This document shows, in pieces, positions 14,643-23,510 of a DNA stretch of 64,000 nucleotides. The notes under the pieces are model-generated. The model did no database searches, had not been told where the DNA came from, and worked only from the letters and a program-made list of their open reading frames with translations. The DNA is from Methylocapsa acidiphila B2. Its GTDB lineage: Bacteria; Pseudomonadota; Alphaproteobacteria; Rhizobiales; Beijerinckiaceae. A program made the position numbers and the translations under genes. The first letter of the stretch is position 1. Each line of letters opens with the position of its first letter. The stretch covers positions 1,240,001 through 1,304,000 of the forward strand of contig NZ_KE386496.1 of assembly GCF_000427445.1 (NCBI RefSeq). Reading direction: 5' to 3'.

Positions 14643-16904
14643 ATGATAGACGAACACGGAAACAGAGTTGCGCGGCGCAATAGCCGAGACGTTTTGCAAT
14701 TCGCACCGAATTTCACCGTCTATGTGCTGCCTCCCGATGTCGTGTGCCTTTATTCTGAGGACCGCAAGTTCTTGCTTCACGGCGAGCTCTATTGCGCGCT
14801 TGCCGAAGCAATAGGAGAAGGCGGAAGGAGCATTGGTCAGCTCATTTCCAAGCTGGAGCGGGAGTTTCCTTCGGACAAAATCGAAGAAGCCCTGAAACGG
14901 CTGATCGACCGCCGCTATGTGCTTAAAGCATCGCGCGCTGCCAACGGCGCGGTAGCGGCCTATTGGGCGAGCCTCGGCTTGTCGCCCGAGACCGCAGAGC
15001 AAAATCTCCAAAAATGCCGCGTCCGCATTCAATCAATCGACGTAGAGGGGGCGACGGAGCTTGCCGCCGCCTTGACCGAACTGGGCGTTCGCGTCGTCAA
15101 GCGCGCCGGGGACCTGACGGTCACACTGGCGAATGATTATCTCGATGCGCGACTGGCCGAATTAAATGCGCAGCATTTGGCGGACCGCACGCCTTGGGCG
15201 CTCGTGCAACCCTCCGGCATTTTTCCGTTGGTTGGGCCCGTGTTCAGACCCGGAAGCGGCGCCTGCTGGGCATGCGTCGCCGAGCGGATGAAAAGAAATC
15301 GAGAGATCAAGGCGCTTCTCGATCGCAGGGAGGCCCGCTGCGTCGCCGTTTCGCCTCTCGGCCGGCAGACGGTCGGACAAAGCGCCGTTCAGTTTGGCGC
15401 CATCGAGCTCGCGAAAGCGATCGCCACTGATTTTCACACCCCATTGAGCGATCATATTCTCAGCCTTGATCTCTTGGGCTCGACCATCGTGAAGCATTAT
15501 GTGGCCGGTCGCCCACAATGTCCGAGTTGCGGCCGCAAAAAGCTGCGCGATCCTCGCCGCGCACCAGCGCCGATCGAACTTGGCGCAGGCGGCAAAGTTG
15601 TTATGACGAGCGGCGGATATCGCAGCGTTTCCTCATCGGCCACGGTTGCGAATTTCCGCCGGCACGTGAGTCCGCTTACCGGCGTCGTCTCGCGTCTTGA
15701 GCGGATCCAGGCCGACCTGCCCTTGAACACCAATTACCATGCAGCGCATAATTTTGCGGGGCCTTCAGAAACGATCAATGAGCTCCGAGCGGGGCTGAGC
15801 AGCGGAAGCTTTGGCAAGGGCAGCACCGCCGAACAAGGAGAAGCCAGCGCGCTCATGGAGGCGATCGAGCGCTATTCCGGCATTTTTCAGGGCGATGAGA
15901 TCCGCTCCAAACGGCGGTTCGCCGATTTTGCGGCCGGCGAGGCCATAGCTCCGAATAAGGTCCTGCTGTTCAGCGAAGAGCAGTTGCGGCAAGGCCGAGA
16001 ACCAACGTCGGCGTCGGACCAGTGGGAGGCCGTTCCAGCGCTATTCGATCCATCGGCGAAAATCGAATGGTCGCCGGTCTGGTCTCTGCGCGACGAGCGC
16101 TTCAAATATCTGCCAACCAGCCTGATGTATTTCTTTTACAGGGGCCCTGCCGCTTTTGCTGCGGATTCGAATGGCTGCGCGGCCGGCAACACGCGCGAGG
16201 AGGCAATCGTCCAGGGATTTCTCGAGCTGGTGGAAAGGGACGCTTATGCAATTTGGTGGTATAATCGATTGCAACAGCCGATATTGGATCTTGACCAGTT
16301 CGACGATGCCTATATTCGCGAATTGAGAAGGCAGTTGGCCCAAACAGGCCGCCAACTCTGGGTGCTCGACGTCACCAGCGATCTCGGAATTCCGACATTT
16401 GTTGCGATCACGCACTGGATGCAAAACGGGCTGGAAAATATCGAATTCGGCTCCGGCGCGCATTTCGATCCGCGAATCGCCTTGCTGCGGGCGCTGACGG
16501 AATTGAACCAGTTTTTATCCTTGGGCCTCATGGGCGGCGGGACCGGAGAAAAGTCGAGCCTCGACGGCGTCGCTCCGCTGCGCCTGGAGGAGCATCCTTT
16601 TTTGACGCCGCATGGAAACTCGCCGATCCGATCGGACTTAGGCTCGAAATTCGGACATCTCGACACGCGCGAGCAGGTGATGGCCTGCGTCTCCCTGGCT
16701 AAGCAAGCGGGCCTTGATTTCCTTGTCCTCGATCAAACGCGTCCCGACATCGAGGTCCCTGTGGTGCGAGTGATCGTTCCGGAATTGCGGCATTTCTATC
16801 GACGCTTCGCGCCTGGTCGGCTTTACGATGTGCCAGTAAAGCTCGGACTGCGTGAGCGGCCGCTCGACGAAAGCGAGCTCAATCCGGCTCACCCCCATAC
16901 CTGA
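14643..16904 (+). CDS. TOMM leader-binding domain fused to YcaO cyclodehydratase
   Basis: The 753-aa protein combines the two halves of an azoline-forming cyclodehydratase. The N-terminal ~330 residues are the Ocin-ThiF/SagC-like leader-peptide-binding part, with a structural zinc site made of C208-x-x-C211 (CWAC) and C293-x-x-C296 (CPSC). The C-terminal ~390 residues are a YcaO domain with the ATP-binding signatures SALMEAIER (S402, E406, E409, R410) and QGFLELVERDA (Q524, E528, E531, R532). YcaO enzymes use ATP to cyclise Cys or Ser onto the preceding carbonyl. The C-terminus is NPAHPHT, only a partial match to the PxPxP tail seen in many YcaO cyclodehydratases. It lies 310 bp after the precursor and 12 bp before the dehydrogenase. 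Confidence 0.93.
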   Translation: MIDEHGNRVARRNSRDVLQFAPNFTVYVLPPDVVCLYSEDRKFLLHGELYCALAEAIGEGGRSIGQLISKLEREFPSDKIEEALKRLIDRRYVLKASRAANGAVAAYWASLGLSPETAEQNLQKCRVRIQSIDVEGATELAAALTELGVRVVKRAGDLTVTLANDYLDARLAELNAQHLADRTPWALVQPSGIFPLVGPVFRPGSGACWACVAERMKRNREIKALLDRREARCVAVSPLGRQTVGQSAVQFGAIELAKAIATDFHTPLSDHILSLDLLGSTIVKHYVAGRPQCPSCGRKKLRDPRRAPAPIELGAGGKVVMTSGGYRSVSSSATVANFRRHVSPLTGVVSRLERIQADLPLNTNYHAAHNFAGPSETINELRAGLSSGSFGKGSTAEQGEASALMEAIERYSGIFQGDEIRSKRRFADFAAGEAIAPNKVLLFSEEQLRQGREPTSASDQWEAVPALFDPSAKIEWSPVWSLRDERFKYLPTSLMYFFYRGPAAFAADSNGCAAGNTREEAIVQGFLELVERDAYAIWWYNRLQQPILDLDQFDDAYIRELRRQLAQTGRQLWVLDVTSDLGIPTFVAITHWMQNGLENIEFGSGAHFDPRIALLRALTELNQFLSLGLMGGGTGEKSSLDGVAPLRLEEHPFLTPHGNSPIRSDLGSKFGHLDTREQVMACVSLAKQAGLDFLVLDQTRPDIEVPVVRVIVPELRHFYRRFAPGRLYDVPVKLGLRERPLDESELNPAHPHT

Positions 16905-16916
16905 AGCGACTTCGGA

Positions 16917-18368
16917 TTGCGCGCTCCCGAACCGAAAAGAGTGCGACGGGCCGAGCCGGCCGCTGTTTCCATCCGGCTCGGGCGCCGGGTTGCGCTGGAC
17001 CTACGCGCGAACGGAGAGATCCTTGCCGGCCTCGACGGCTATTCGATCAGCTTCGGCGTCTTTAGCGCGGCGGCAGTCCGTCGCGCGCAGAATCTCTACT
17101 CTGGGCTGCCTCTCGCCTCTCTCGCGTCCGAAAGCCGAAGCACCGGCAAGGAGATCAATCTCCTCGTTCGTCGATTAGCAAGGCTCGGTCTGTTGGAATA
17201 TCGGCTCGGGCGCTCCCCGGTCGACCAAGACCTTGTGGTCATAGAACCGCAGAGCCCCGATTATTGGCCGCAAACGCCGCGCCTCGGCGACGCGGATGCT
17301 CTTGTACTGTCGCGATTCGCCTATATGCGGCGGCGCGGCGACGAGATGGTGTTGGAATCGCCGCGCGCCGGCGCATTGTTCAAGATTTGCGATCCGACGA
17401 TCGCCGCCGCCATCACGACTCTCGCCACCCCTACGCAAATCAAGCAACTCCGCGGTCATGCCGGATTTCCGGGAATCGCTTTTCTCGCCTTACTGGTTGA
17501 TTGCCAAATTATTTTCAAAACCGACGGCTCCAGCGATGGGGGTCGTCGCGCCGCCGAGGGCGACCACAACCTCGTTCTATGGGACTTTCACGACCTTCTA
17601 TTCCATGCGCGCAGCACCGAAGGCCGGCACGCCAATCCGCTCGGCGGCGTCTATCCCTATGCCGGCGTCATTCCTCCGCTGCCGGCCGTGCGGCCCAGTT
17701 GGCCTGGAAAGAAAATCGATTTGCGCAAGTTCTCGTCCGAGGCGATCTCGCCAATCGCAACGCTCCTGCGAGAACGTCATTCGACACGCAGCTTCGACGA
17801 TCAGCGTCCCGTCACGCTCGCGGAGCTTTCACGATTTCTCGACGGCGCCGCGCGCGTCCTGTCGCGATCTCGCAGCAAGCCCGACCTCGATGACGGCGGT
17901 TATGCGGTCAGGCCGTACCCGTCCGCGGGCGCGGGCTACGAACTCGAGCTCTATCTGTCAGTCGGTAAATGCGACGGCCTTGCAAAGGGATTCTACCATT
18001 ACGACGCCGGCGCCCACATGCTTGCGCCTGTCAGCGTTCCGACCAATGAAATCGAGACATTGTTGACGAGCGCCGCCGGCGCAATGGGGTCACTCGCCGC
18101 GCCCCAGATTCTGATCACGATCGCTGCGCGCTTTGGCAGAATTTCATGGAAATACAGCTCGATTGCATATTCACTCATTCTCAAGGACGTCGGAGTCCTC
18201 ACTCAAACGCTCTACCTAATGGCGGCCGACATAGGACTCGGCGGATGTGCGATTGGAATCGCGAATATTGACCAATTCGCAAAAATTACGGGACTCGAAT
18301 TCCACATAGAGGGCCCGGTGGGTCAGTTTGCGATCGGCCGCCCCGCAAATTCCGAGGCCTCCGACTGA
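16917..18368 (+). CDS. SagB-type FMN-dependent azoline dehydrogenase
   Basis: The 483-aa protein has a variable N-terminal domain (about 1-270) and a C-terminal nitroreductase-fold SagB domain beginning near ISPIATLLRERHSTRSF. FMN-site features include RHSTRSF, RPYPSAGAGYELELYLSV, KGFYHYD and the late DVGVLTQTLYLMAADIGLGG. Such enzymes oxidise azolines to azoles, completing thiazole formation after the YcaO enzyme. The start codon read is TTG at 16917, 12 bp after the YcaO stop; a GTG at 16941 is an alternative. No transporter, protease or immunity gene adjoins it; the next plus-strand gene is cyoA, 414 bp downstream. Confidence 0.92.
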   Translation: MRAPEPKRVRRAEPAAVSIRLGRRVALDLRANGEILAGLDGYSISFGVFSAAAVRRAQNLYSGLPLASLASESRSTGKEINLLVRRLARLGLLEYRLGRSPVDQDLVVIEPQSPDYWPQTPRLGDADALVLSRFAYMRRRGDEMVLESPRAGALFKICDPTIAAAITTLATPTQIKQLRGHAGFPGIAFLALLVDCQIIFKTDGSSDGGRRAAEGDHNLVLWDFHDLLFHARSTEGRHANPLGGVYPYAGVIPPLPAVRPSWPGKKIDLRKFSSEAISPIATLLRERHSTRSFDDQRPVTLAELSRFLDGAARVLSRSRSKPDLDDGGYAVRPYPSAGAGYELELYLSVGKCDGLAKGFYHYDAGAHMLAPVSVPTNEIETLLTSAAGAMGSLAAPQILITIAARFGRISWKYSSIAYSLILKDVGVLTQTLYLMAADIGLGGCAIGIANIDQFAKITGLEFHIEGPVGQFAIGRPANSEASD

Positions 18369-18782: not shown

Positions 18783-19691
18783 TTGCGCCGACTTCATTTG
18801 GTACCCGCCCGCCCCCGGCGCTGCGCGATCCTTCTTGCGCCCATCCTCCTGACAGGATGTCAACCAGCGGTCCTCGATCCGCAAGGAGTCGTTGGGCGAG
18901 CCGAGAAGATGATTTTAATCGACTCCGTCGCAGTCATGCTCGCTATCGTCCTGCCGACAATTGCCGCCACCTTTGCCTTCGCGTGGTGGTTTCGCGCCTC
19001 CAATGAGAAGGCGCGCCGTCTGCCAGATTGGGATTATTCCGGCCGCATCGAGCTCATCGTCTGGGGCATTCCCCTGCTTGTCATCATGCTGCTTGGCGGC
19101 GTCGCCTGGATCGGATCGCATGACCTCGACCCTGCAAAGCCTTTGACGTCGAACACGCCGCCAATCGAAGTCCAGGCCGTTTCGCTGGATTGGAAGTGGC
19201 TCTTCATCTATCCGAAGCAGGGCGTTGCGAGCGTGAACCGGCTTGTGATTCCCGCAGGCGCGCCGGTTCATTTCTCTCTAACTTCGGCGAGCGTCATGAA
19301 CGCCTTCTTTATACCGCAGCTCGGCAGCATGATCTACACGATGAACGGCATGACAACGCAGTTAAACCTGCAGGCGGACGCGCCTGGCGTCTTCCGCGGC
19401 ATTTCAAGCCATTACAGCGGCGACGGCTTCTCGGACATGCATTTCGACGTTGTGGCGACGCCGGCGGCGGAGTTCGAAGCCTGGATTAAAGCTACGCGCA
19501 ACGTCGGCCCTACCCTTAATTCCGCGAGCTACGCCGAGCTCGCTAGGCAAAGCATAAATGCGCATCCATTCAGCTTTGGCGCGGCCGATCCGGACTTATT
19601 CCAACAGATCGTATCACAGAAATTACCGCCAGGGCCTGGGCCGAGCAGCGGTCGGCCTGATGTGAGCGTATCCCCGCGGACGGAGCATTGA
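18783..19691 (+). CDS. cyoA: Cytochrome bo-type ubiquinol oxidase subunit II (CyoA)
   Basis: The 302-aa protein begins with a lipoprotein signal (lipobox LLTGC), then two transmembrane helices and a periplasmic cupredoxin domain. In place of the CuA ligands of cytochrome c oxidases it reads [14 protein letters not shown] and RGISSHYSG, without the Cys pair, so it is a quinol oxidase subunit. The start is a TTG at 18783 with AAGGAA upstream. The cyoB gene follows immediately. There is no cyoE (haem O synthase) in the cluster. Confidence 0.93.
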
Positions 19692-19693
19692 AC

Positions 19694-21697
19694 ATGTGGG
19701 GCAAACTCAGCTGGGCCGCCATTCCGTTCGACCAGCCGATCCCATTGATCGCGTCGGGCGTCGTCGGGTTCGCGCTCGTCGCCGTGCTCGCCCTGATCGC
19801 TTTGAAGGGATGGCTTCCCTACCTCTGGAGGGAATGGATCACCAGCGTAGACCATAAGAGGATCGGAATCATGTACGTCGTGCTCGCGATGGTCATGCTT
19901 CTGCGCGGTTTCACTGACGCGATCATGATGCGCTCGCAACAAGCCCTCGCTTTTCGGTCGCCGGGCTACCTGCCGCCCGAGCATTACGATCAGATCTTCT
20001 CGGCCCATGGCACGCTAATGATTTTCTTCGTTGCGATGCCCTTTGTGATTGGGCTCATGAATTTCGTGACGCCGCTCCAGCTGGGCGTCCGCGACGTCGC
20101 GTTTCCTACCCTCAACTCGGTCGGATTCTGGCTTACGGCCACCGGCGCCCTGCTCGTCAATATTTCGCTGCTCGTCGGCGAATTCGCGCGCACCGGATGG
20201 CTGCCGTTTCCTCCGCTCTCCGAACTGACCTACTCCCCCGGCGTCGGCGTCGATTATTATCTCTGGTCGCTCCAAATTTCCGGGGTGGGCGCCTTGCTGG
20301 CAGGCGTCAACCTTCTGACGACTGTCCTCAAGCTTCGCGCCCCCGGCATGACCTATATGCGCATGCCGATGTTCTGCTGGACGACGCTCGCCTCCAACCT
20401 ACTGATCGTCGCCGCATTCCCCGTTCTCACGGCGACTCTGGCCATGTTGTTGCTGGACCGTTACCTCGGCTTTCACTTTTTTACGAACGAAGCCGGCGGC
20501 AACGTGATGATGTTCATGAACCTCATCTGGGTGTGGGGACATCCCGAGGTCTATATTCTCATCCTGCCTGCGTTCGGCATATTCTCCGAAGTGGTCTCGA
20601 CTTTCTCAGGCAAGCCGCTGTTCGGCTATCGATCAATGGTCGCCGCGACAATGGTCATCTGCGTGCTCTCTTTCACGGTCTGGCTACACCATTTCTTTAC
20701 GATGGGCACCGGCGCGGACGTCAATGCGCTTTTCGGAATCGCCTCTATGATCATCGCCGTGCCCACAGGCGTTAAGGTCTTCAACTGGCTTTTCACGATG
20801 TATGGCGGCCGGATCGTCTATTCCACGCCGCTATTATGGGCGCTCGGCTTTATGGTCACATTCGTGATTGGCGGAATGAGCGGCGTTCTTCTGGCGAATC
20901 CGCCGGCCGACTTCGTGCTTCATAACAGTCTCTTTCTCGTTGCGCACTTCCATAATGTCATCATCGGAGGCGTGCTATTTGGCGCGTTCGCCGGCTACAC
21001 CTATTGGTTCCCGAAGGCGTTCGGCTTCCGGCTGCACGAAGGACTTGGCAAAGCGTCGTTCTGGTGCTGGATCGTGGGCTTCTACGTCACCTTTATGCCT
21101 CTATATGTCCTCGGCCTCATGGGGATGACCCGCCGCATGCAGCACTATGACGTTGCGGCGTGGCGTCCATGGCTTTTGGTCGCGGCCGGCGGCGCGGCGA
21201 TCATCCTGATAGGGATCATTTTGCAGACCGCGCAGCTCGTCGTGAGCATTCGCCGCCGCGCCGACCTTCGCGACGAAACCGGCGACCCCTGGAATGGGCG
21301 TTCCCTGGAATGGGCGACGGCGTCCCCGCCTCCAGTCTTCAATTTCGCGGCGACGCCCAGAATAAAAAATGACGACGCCTATTGGGGAGCGAAGCAGCGG
21401 GCCCTACAGGAGTCGAGGCTGGGCGAAGAGCCGGCCTACACGGATATCGAGATGCCAAGGAATACCCCAACCGGTTTCGTCTGCGCCTTCTTCGCGACCA
21501 TCATGGGTTTTGCGTTAATCTGGCACATCTGGTGGATAGCGGGCCTCGCGCTTTTCGGCTCCTATGCGACATTCGTCGTCTTTGCTTGGCGGGACAAGGA
21601 CGAGTATGTCATTCCGGCCGAAACAGTCGCGCGCATAGATCGCGCCAATCGGAGCGCGCGCAACGCCGCTCTCGCTCGACGTCCGGCGGCGCCATGA
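19694..21697 (+). CDS. cyoB: Cytochrome bo-type ubiquinol oxidase subunit I (CyoB)
   Basis: The 667-aa haem-copper oxidase core reduces oxygen and pumps protons. The quinone-site residues of the E. coli enzyme are preserved in [15 protein letters not shown] and the nearby [11 protein letters not shown]. The CuB site is seen in [16 protein letters not shown] (His and the cross-linked Tyr) and LHHFFTMG, and the haem ligands in [11 protein letters not shown]. The ATG at 19694 was chosen because GGAG lies eight bases before it; a TTG at 19688 overlaps the cyoA stop. It overlaps cyoC by ATGA. Confidence 0.97.
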
Positions 21698-22335
21698 CCG
21701 CCTTTGAGGCGGCCGCCGGCCGCGAAAATCCGAGCCGCCCAACCACGTTGGGACACGCTGCCGCCGCGCTGGCGTCGAAGCGCATCGTCACCAGTTACGG
21801 CTTCTGGATTTTTCTGCTCAGCGACATCATTATGTTCTCCTGCTTGTTCGCCGCCTATGCGGTGCTGATGGGCGACACGGCTGGAGGACCGACCGGGCGG
21901 GAACTATTCAACCTGCGCAACGTCGAGCTTGAAACGGCGTGCCTTCTCCTGTCAAGCTTCACTTGCGGCCTCGCAGGCGTTGGCGCGAGGGCCCATCGCG
22001 GATCCCTGTTTTACGGCGCGATGACGACGACCCTGATGCTTGGCGCAGGGTTCCTCAGTCTCGAGACGCGAGAGTTTGCGGGCATGATCGCGAGCGGGGC
22101 CGGCCCGACGCGAAGCGCCTTCCTATCGGCCTTCTTTACGCTAGTTGGATGCCACGGCCTTCACGTCTCCGTTGGGCTGCTATGGCTGCTAACGATGATG
22201 GCGCAGGTATTCGCCAAAGGCTACAGGGAGGATATTCTCCGGCGCATGCTCTGCTTCGGCCTATTCTGGCATGCGCTGGACATTATTTGGGTTGCGTTAT
22301 TCACCGTGGTGTACCTGATTGGAGCGAGGCAATGA
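21694..22335 (+). CDS. cyoC: Cytochrome bo-type ubiquinol oxidase subunit III (CyoC)
   Basis: The 213-aa protein has five predicted membrane helices and the subunit III signatures [33 protein letters not shown] and [18 protein letters not shown]. It starts at the ATG overlapping the cyoB stop (ATGA) and itself overlaps the next gene by ATGA, so the four oxidase genes are translationally coupled. Confidence 0.95.
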
Positions 22336-23510
22336 CCTATTCCGAGCCGTCGAACAGCCCCAATCCGATGGGCGCCGCGCCGGGCGATCCGAGCATCGAC
22401 GAAACGGAGATCTTCGAGGGAGTCAAATCCTACCTTATCGGGCTCGGGCTCGCGACGCTGCTCACGATCATTTCCTTCTTTATCGCGGGCACTACGCTCG
22501 TCTGGGCTCCAAGCATTCCGGTCGCCCTAGTTGTTCTCGCAATCGCACAGATGGGCGTTCATCTCGTCTTCTTTCTCCACATCACGACCGGTCCAGACAA
22601 TGTCAACAATGTCATGGCGCTCGCGTTCGGCCTGTTGGTCGTCCTGCTGATTCTTTCCGGTTCCCTTTGGATCATGGCGCATTTGAATCACGATATGGGG
22701 CATGTCGATAATGCAATGCAGGCGCCGCCCGAACGCGGCGGAGCGAACCGCATCGTGACCGCGACGGGCGTCGTCGGTCCCGCGGCGACCGAGGCAGTGG
22801 CCGCGCGCGCTTCGGGCGAAATTCAGGCGCTCAATTGCGACGCAAACATGCGCGTGAAAGCAGGCCAGCTCTGCGCAAAAATCGATCCGGCCCCCTATCA
22901 GATCGCCATAGATCGCTATAGGGCTGAGCTGACCGCAGCCAACGCTCAGTTCGAAAAGGACAAGGCGGATCTCGCGCAAGCGAAAGCGGCCTTCCAGAAG
23001 AAAGAGGGCCGATCGAAGCATTCAGACATGCGGCTGGCGGTCGACAAGCTGCGCAGCGCTTTTGAGAGGGCGCAGGCGCAGACGGAGCAGGACGAAACCG
23101 CAGTCGCAGAACTCCGGGCGACTCTTCACGCCGCCGAGACCAACCTCGGCTATACCGACATTGTTGCGCCGATTGATGGAACTGTGGTCTCCCGCAACGT
23201 CGAGAAGGGTCAGAGGGTCACGGCCGGATCGGAAAAGCCGCTTTTCGTCTTTGCCGCCGATCTCACATCCGCTCGCATCGACGCAATGGTCAGCGCCAAG
23301 GGTCGCGCGGACATCAAGCTCGGCGACCAAGTCACCTTCACCGTCGAGGCACTCCCTAACCATTCATTTACTGGCGCAGTAACGCAAATCCATCCCATAT
23401 TTGAGGCGTCTGAACATGCCGCTGCATATGACGTCGTCATCACCGCGCCTAACGAGGATCTGTTGTTGAAGCCGGGTATGGCGGCGACGACAATGATTGT
23501 GATCGAGTGA
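22332..23510 (+). CDS. CyoD (quinol oxidase subunit IV) fused to a HlyD/MacA-type periplasmic adaptor
   Basis: One uninterrupted 392-aa frame joins two families. Residues 1-122 are CyoD: three helices (about 33-53, 62-83, 93-116) with VKSYLIGLGLATLLTIISFF, MGVHLVFFLHI and SGSLWIMAHLNHDMGH, the usual CyoD end. After a short linker, residues 140-392 are a membrane fusion protein: TATGVVGP strand, first lipoyl half ending GQLCAKIDPAPYQ, a Glu/Lys/Ala-rich coiled-coil hairpin (about 190-268), second lipoyl half NLGYTDIVAPIDGTVVSRNV, and a beta barrel closing LLLKPGMAATTMIV. E. coli CyoD has a periplasmic C-terminus, so the adaptor would be correctly placed. The usual MFP signal/anchor is missing, replaced by CyoD. 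No MacB/RND pump or TolC gene follows. Start overlaps cyoC by ATGA. Confidence 0.93.
   Translation: MTYSEPSNSPNPMGAAPGDPSIDETEIFEGVKSYLIGLGLATLLTIISFFIAGTTLVWAPSIPVALVVLAIAQMGVHLVFFLHITTGPDNVNNVMALAFGLLVVLLILSGSLWIMAHLNHDMGHVDNAMQAPPERGGANRIVTATGVVGPAATEAVAARASGEIQALNCDANMRVKAGQLCAKIDPAPYQIAIDRYRAELTAANAQFEKDKADLAQAKAAFQKKEGRSKHSDMRLAVDKLRSAFERAQAQTEQDETAVAELRATLHAAETNLGYTDIVAPIDGTVVSRNVEKGQRVTAGSEKPLFVFAADLTSARIDAMVSAKGRADIKLGDQVTFTVEALPNHSFTGAVTQIHPIFEASEHAAAYDVVITAPNEDLLLKPGMAATTMIVIE

Follow-up and report, generated by a model that had tools for sequence, protein, structure and literature searches.

Periplasmic adaptors of the MacA and AcrA type are parts of three-component export pumps, and the adaptor family tends to form rings. 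CyoD, subunit IV of the cytochrome bo3 quinol oxidase (TIGR02847; PDB 6wti chain D), is a three-helix protein encoded by the last gene of cyoABCD, and in E. coli its C-terminus is periplasmic. According to a published study and a review, the sequence RxxxLxxxxxxS (the RLS motif) at the tip of the adaptor hairpin forms the interface with TolC, where single changes alter binding and efflux (PMC3391258; PMC4446572), and such adaptors probably function as a trimer of dimers (PMC4446572). In Methylocapsa acidiphila B2 a CyoD and a MacA-like adaptor share one reading frame. Both halves are known domains, and their combination, which the earlier note had taken to be of an undescribed kind, is likewise not found described in the open-access literature searched (subscription papers and preprints lie outside that scope).

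The fusion lies on the forward strand of a 64,000-nucleotide stretch of the genome (hereafter, the window), at the end of a cyoABCD operon. The genes cyoA (quinol oxidase subunit II, 18783..19691; TIGR01433, 296.4 bits against a cut-off of 266.2) and cyoB (subunit I, 19688..21697; TIGR02843, 1053.8 bits against 1020.35) are followed by cyoC (subunit III), whose frame as listed, 21382..22335, is COX3 in Pfam and scores 221.0 bits, just below the TIGR02842 cut-off of 223.75. Because the CyoC match begins at residue 138, the real cyoC start is placed downstream of the listed one. The last gene of the operon, 22332..23510, has its start codon within an ATGA shared with the stop codon of cyoC and is followed by a glyoxalase-type gene. 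Its stop-free translation of 392 residues matches the CyoD profile TIGR02847 over residues 31-122 (94.2 bits, cut-off 81.45) and the adaptor profile TIGR01730 (RND_mfp) over residues 141-389 (123.2 bits, cut-off 94.9), and this confirms the single in-frame protein that was first proposed from the letters alone; the arrangement is also kept in other genomes. Directly upstream of cyoA (14643-18368) are a YcaO protein of 753 residues and then a ThcOx/nitroreductase-type oxidase, a pair that resembles azole-peptide (TOMM) gene clusters. These neighbours were considered as a reason for the adaptor and dropped, as none were recognised by eye in five other loci of the Methylocapsa line (L048-L052).

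An AlphaFold2 model of the 392-residue protein (36 rows; mean pLDDT 79.7) orders the chain as three membrane helices, a floppy linker around residues 126-137, a lipoyl domain, a hairpin and a terminal beta-barrel. The CyoD part (residues 1-126; 22332..22709) has predicted helices at 24-55, 62-86 and 88-126, modelled with modest confidence (pLDDT about 50-78) and in agreement with three hydrophobic stretches in the sequence. The linker (residues 127-139; 22710..22748) has pLDDT mostly below 50. The adaptor part (22749..23507), mostly at 80-98, consists of lipoyl halves, an alpha-hairpin at residues 187-273 and a beta-barrel that runs to the end of the chain. The top Foldseek matches of the model are MacA structures, the adaptor fold being lipoyl, hairpin and beta-barrel, and a sequence search against solved structures returns MacA and bo3 subunit IV. 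MacA of the MacAB-TolC pump (PDB 3fpp, 5nik, 9qgy) is thus the best match to the adaptor among solved structures in both fold and sequence. It differs in that the window protein lacks an anchor of its own, the membrane-proximal stretch, the RLS motif and an adjoining macB, and it reaches 112.4 bits against the MacA equivalog, far below the cut-off of 342. The three-helix CyoD of the earlier note therefore stands, as does the missing N-terminal anchor; its description of the adaptor as near-complete was too generous, since the chain goes no further than the beta-barrel and the C-terminal membrane-proximal stretch is absent too.

The same architecture, which the earlier note had suggested looking for elsewhere, is present in 11 full CyoD-adaptor genes in 10 genomes, the window gene included. 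Five full-length copies with 61-67% identity occur in four genomes of the same genus, two of them in G001 (from a search of 60 genomes, 59 relatives and the window genome itself), and five further genes occur in two further genera (G278, G179, G205, G284 at L241, and G243 at L305). The genera are most likely the Methylocapsa, Methylocystis and Methylosinus lines. The relatives from the contig search are the best 80 of 229; the family-wide adaptor search was run at E <= 1e-40, and the fused CyoD of G243 was found only from the CyoD side. A search of 385 genomes of the class, scoring up to 4 candidates in each, found both halves in one match at E <= 1e-22 in the window genome only. Among the 40 pmoA-negative family genomes with an inspected CyoD frame, 39 have a chain that stops no more than 34 residues past CyoD, whereas the window protein continues for about 270 residues, which form the adaptor. 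One pmoA-negative genome of genus g18 (G196, L314) encodes a CyoD with a tail of about 90 residues that matches the adaptor profile, perhaps a decaying fusion.

A singleton or an assembly error was rejected, as the same fusion is found in separate assemblies. More broadly, we regard it as very improbable that the fusion is an artefact, whether by misassembly or because one frame gives two separate products. Apart from a mixed history of recombination in the adaptor part, nothing favours such an artefact, and the agreement between assemblies extends to a plasmid of Methylocystis rosea GW6, on which a fusion of the adaptor to a P2A ATPase is annotated as a single CDS, named as a P-type ATPase only. 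An adaptor started separately from within the CyoD gene, lacking helix or signal, would have no route to the periplasm, and the internal ATG at residue 129 has no clear ribosome site upstream, as judged by eye.

The nearest relatives of the adaptor outside the CyoD fusions are mostly C-terminal parts of long frames rather than free adaptors. Their partners, by Pfam and NCBIfam, include a P1B heavy-metal ATPase with hemerythrin, a P2A ATPase (calcium-type by best match, under the equivalog cut-offs), a P3A proton ATPase and a four-helix protein that has no Pfam match. Family-wide typing adds F1 ATPase subunits (L195, L202) and AHSA1 proteins (L211, L215, L216), as well as P2A-like partners about 40% identical to the L054 kind, which were typed by BLAST alone. 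The adaptor module is therefore carried by seven partner types, which represent five unrelated families. The oxidase, the P-type ATPases and the F-type ATPase are cation movers; the AHSA1 and four-helix proteins are not, to our knowledge, ion pumps. The P1B-hemerythrin and other P-type ATPases are the closest parallel to the window gene, in that they bear the same adaptor subfamily at the C-terminus in related organisms, one of them in the window genome itself (L063); they differ in being other enzymes and in having an extra hydrophobic anchor before the adaptor.

For comparison, 57 fused rows were set against 82 standalone rows (76 distinct, after 6 duplicates). The fused rows comprise 25 P2A, 12 P1B, 9 CyoD, 4 P3A, 3 AHSA1, 2 four-helix and 2 F1 fusions. 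They omit genes cut by contig ends (L057, L100, L103), the short contigs of G006, repeats under other locus identifiers (L098, L099, L101, L104, L110, L116, L165, L083-L091, L093-L096) and genes found later (L240, L241, L305). Three long N-terminal frames with no Pfam partner (L147, L150, L172) are counted as standalone.

The second copy of the module in the window genome (L063:6593-9904, minus strand) encodes P1B ATPase, hemerythrin, hydrophobic anchor and adaptor in one frame of 1103 residues. Two F1 fusions (L225:9291-11864, minus strand; L226:12233-14746, plus strand) consist of a subunit (alpha by eye, in an N-type operon), a proline-rich linker, a hydrophobic stretch and the adaptor; read by eye, the operons of the F1 fusions are of the N-type F-ATPase, with the fused gene alpha and then gamma. 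A single frame of 1628 residues (L183:617-5503, minus strand) joins an AI-2E transporter, a P2A ATPase and the adaptor. In L056:1211-2659 (plus strand) and L058:5383-6933 (plus strand) the partner is the Pfam-less four-helix membrane protein, and the adaptor tip, unlike that of most others, is not basic. On plasmid pRX1 of Methylocapsa polymorpha (L274) a P1B-adaptor gene is apparently frame-broken, and the public annotation covers the adaptor part alone.

The fusions obey a simple rule of membrane anchoring. The 45 residues ahead of the adaptor include a hydrophobic stretch in each of the 48 non-CyoD fusions; in several it takes the form AFGGGWLTWSL and resembles the former anchor of MacA. 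For each of the 9 CyoD rows the third helix of CyoD is the last helix, with the same gap of 28 residues to the adaptor domain, and the window adaptor has no N-terminal anchor of its own. ATPase partners end in the cytoplasm and CyoD in the periplasm, so each of the two designs would put the adaptor outside. By analogy with E. coli, the C-terminus of the window CyoD would place its adaptor in the periplasm, which supports the earlier judgement that the arrangement is topologically sensible. The anchor rule also speaks in favour of the fused proteins being produced and inserted.

Most of the fused adaptors have lost parts that tripartite efflux requires. Of the fused rows, 4 of 57 have the complete RLS motif, compared with 70 of 82 standalone rows; its R and L are present in all 82 of the latter. 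The motif is absent from the hairpin tip of the window gene, and the rows that keep it are L052, the only one of the 9 CyoD rows to do so, and three P2A fusions (L178, L181, L210). After the barrel or aligned domain, every standalone row continues for 79-118 residues, while 47 of the 57 fused rows have only 1-37 and the remaining 10 have 74-118. The 9 CyoD rows have 1 or 7 residues after the adaptor domain; the membrane-proximal domain is judged absent from them by length, and none is seen in the window model. The tip is more basic in the fused rows (median net charge +3, against 0 in standalone rows; Mann-Whitney p = 8e-21, with related rows treated as independent), and a charge of +2 or more is found in 49 of 57 fused rows and 1 of 82 standalone rows; the two four-helix rows have -1 and 0. 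Hairpin length is the same in both sets (median 84).

These losses bear on the suggestion, made in the earlier note, that an oxidase subunit anchors an efflux adaptor and so links respiration with export. On such a reading the fused adaptor meets an outer-membrane channel and exports ions or substrates, or it holds an RND or ABC pump near a source of proton motive force. The MacA-like fold, the unchanged hairpin and the fact that most known partners move cations agree with it, as do the 4 rows with RLS and the 10 with a long C-terminal stretch, some of which could still dock normally. Against it stand the near-complete loss of RLS relative to the standalone rows and the missing C-terminal stretch in 47 of 57 rows; in addition, a proton conduit at the oxidase would waste the gradient.

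The gene neighbourhoods point in both directions. We take the parent family as macAB because a MacB-type ABC gene follows two standalone relatives (L236, L245; Pfam), whereas reading 8 CyoD-fusion loci by eye (the window, L048-L052, L232, L233) revealed no recognisable macB. That the window adaptor belongs to a local macAB operon was rejected, as no macB was seen beside the gene and a glyoxalase-type gene follows it. The search for efflux partners is nevertheless not wholly negative. By Pfam, the fusion in L048 has an outer-membrane efflux gene some 8 kb away, and HlyD-like and outer-membrane efflux genes adjoin, on the other strand, the L052 fusion, which belongs to the second copy in G001. 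Around the ATPase or F1 fusions Pfam finds RND pumps (L226, L228), outer-membrane efflux genes (L228, L230) and HlyD-type genes (L227, L230), and a lipoyl-type gene lies in the stretch around the L229 fusion. These nearby genes support a role in efflux, above all for L052, because its adaptor keeps RLS. For the window gene, with its RLS tip and membrane-proximal stretch gone and no macB recognised in the 8 loci, a working efflux adaptor is not supported, and for the fusions as a whole we consider it rather unlikely.

The reading that we prefer, and hold tentatively, is that the adaptor is a lineage-specific periplasmic tether or clustering module that has moved among ion pumps and mostly no longer serves efflux. 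The loss of RLS and of the membrane-proximal parts in most fused rows favours such a tether; the 10 of 57 rows with a long C-terminal stretch and the 4 of 57 with RLS are to be set against it, since some of these could dock normally.

The history of the module is one of inheritance as well as exchange. In a maximum-likelihood tree of 133 rows, in which several fused rows are long branches of uncertain place, one branch (96/92) splits the 76 standalone from the 57 fused rows, a single change. Among the fused rows the partner type requires at least 13 changes, compared with 24-32 when shuffled, and genus requires 7; among 18 rows of the Methylocapsa line, partner requires 6 changes and genome 11. 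The adaptors do not group more strongly by genus than they do by partner. These counts suggest that the fusions are largely inherited with their partner, yet with at least a dozen partner switches or conversions between paralogues. Copying is visible directly in two genomes. In G011 the P1B and P2A fusion genes have 1162 bp in common at 98.2% identity, to near the gene ends. In G001 the DNA of the two cyo operons (L051, L052) is identical from early cyoB to the adaptor start and only 61-74% identical thereafter, a tract that, from its sequence, appears to be a sign of recent gene conversion.

Such mobility is also what would be expected of a near-neutral or selfish C-terminal module, in which recombining adaptor repeats add or swap tails on tolerant genes, selection asking only for an open frame and a harmless tail. 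The near-identical copy on two pumps in G011 fits this explanation, as do the conversion tract of G001, which ends inside the adaptor, the truncated adaptor-like tail of the G196 CyoD and the adaptor-less CyoD of G013, a genome that bears pmoA. The rates of substitution can be read both ways. Adaptor dN/dS is 0.26-0.78, below 1 in 17 of 17 hand-picked pairs; values for both adaptor and partner are available for 16 pairs, and the adaptor has the higher one in 14, so that the constraint is modest; on these sequences the module appears constrained, but loosely. Against a neutral tail, the 57 compared rows retain open frames of about 250 codons, the fold is kept in the window model, 49 of 57 rows have a tip charge of at least +2 and none of the 48 non-CyoD fusions breaks the anchor rule. 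The alternative of a neutral gene fusion, raised in the earlier note, is weakened by these dN/dS values and by recurrence on seven partner types, and we judge it rather unlikely.

The distribution of the fusions suggests a link with methanotrophy. The pmoA gene (PF02461) is found in 40 of 298 family genomes and typed fusions in 29, hits in shorter frames having been typed in part; 28 of these 29 carry pmoA (G260 is the exception), and typed fusions are lacking from the other 12 pmoA genomes. Of the 298 genomes, 112 have CyoD. Where it occurs together with pmoA, the full fusion is found in 10 of 11 genomes, all but G013; the other 101 are pmoA-negative, and the 40 inspected frames come from these. 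Shared ancestry may explain part of the link between pmoA and the fusions. The basic tip and this link had suggested a spacer for internal membranes as a general rule. A phylum-wide draw for pmoA (299 genomes) gave one AMO genome outside the family, G786, whose relatives are presumably ammonia oxidisers with internal membranes. In 120 genomes of the G786 family (AMO tested in G786 alone) adaptor hits occur only in frames of 210-550 residues, and the spacer as a general rule is weakened.

The tether reading builds on features established at the level of sequence, namely the architecture and its recurrence, the anchor rule, the loss of the TolC-docking and membrane-proximal parts in most fused rows, the copying of the module, and open frames under a degree of constraint. 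The window gene encodes a quinol-oxidase subunit IV that bears on its C-terminus a shortened MacA-type adaptor of lipoyl, alpha-hairpin and beta-barrel. More generally, in methanotrophic Beijerinckiaceae one macAB-derived module has moved onto the C-termini of several, mostly ion-pumping, inner-membrane proteins, and in most of these fusions it has probably left its efflux role. A ring or partial ring formed by tails from different complexes would bring those complexes together. With each arm some 40 residues long and a tip that is basic, the hairpin could reach another anionic surface on the far side of the periplasm, or of the internal-membrane lumen, and hold the pumps against it. A bolder version, which we regard as conceivable but doubtful, is that type II methanotrophs have turned an efflux adaptor into an exchangeable periplasmic docking tail, so that the oxidase, the F-type and the P-type ATPases are co-assembled or pinned through a common basic-tipped ring, a shared bioenergetic scaffold.

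The fusions also expose an annotation gap, as one of them is publicly named by its ATPase half only, and they amount to naturally occurring domain swaps governed by one simple rule of anchoring. One adaptor subfamily seems to have left efflux to serve as a tail of respiratory and ATP-driven ion pumps, and some genomes hold several genes of this kind. The fusions give a testable lead on the possible arrangement of ion pumps in methanotroph membranes.
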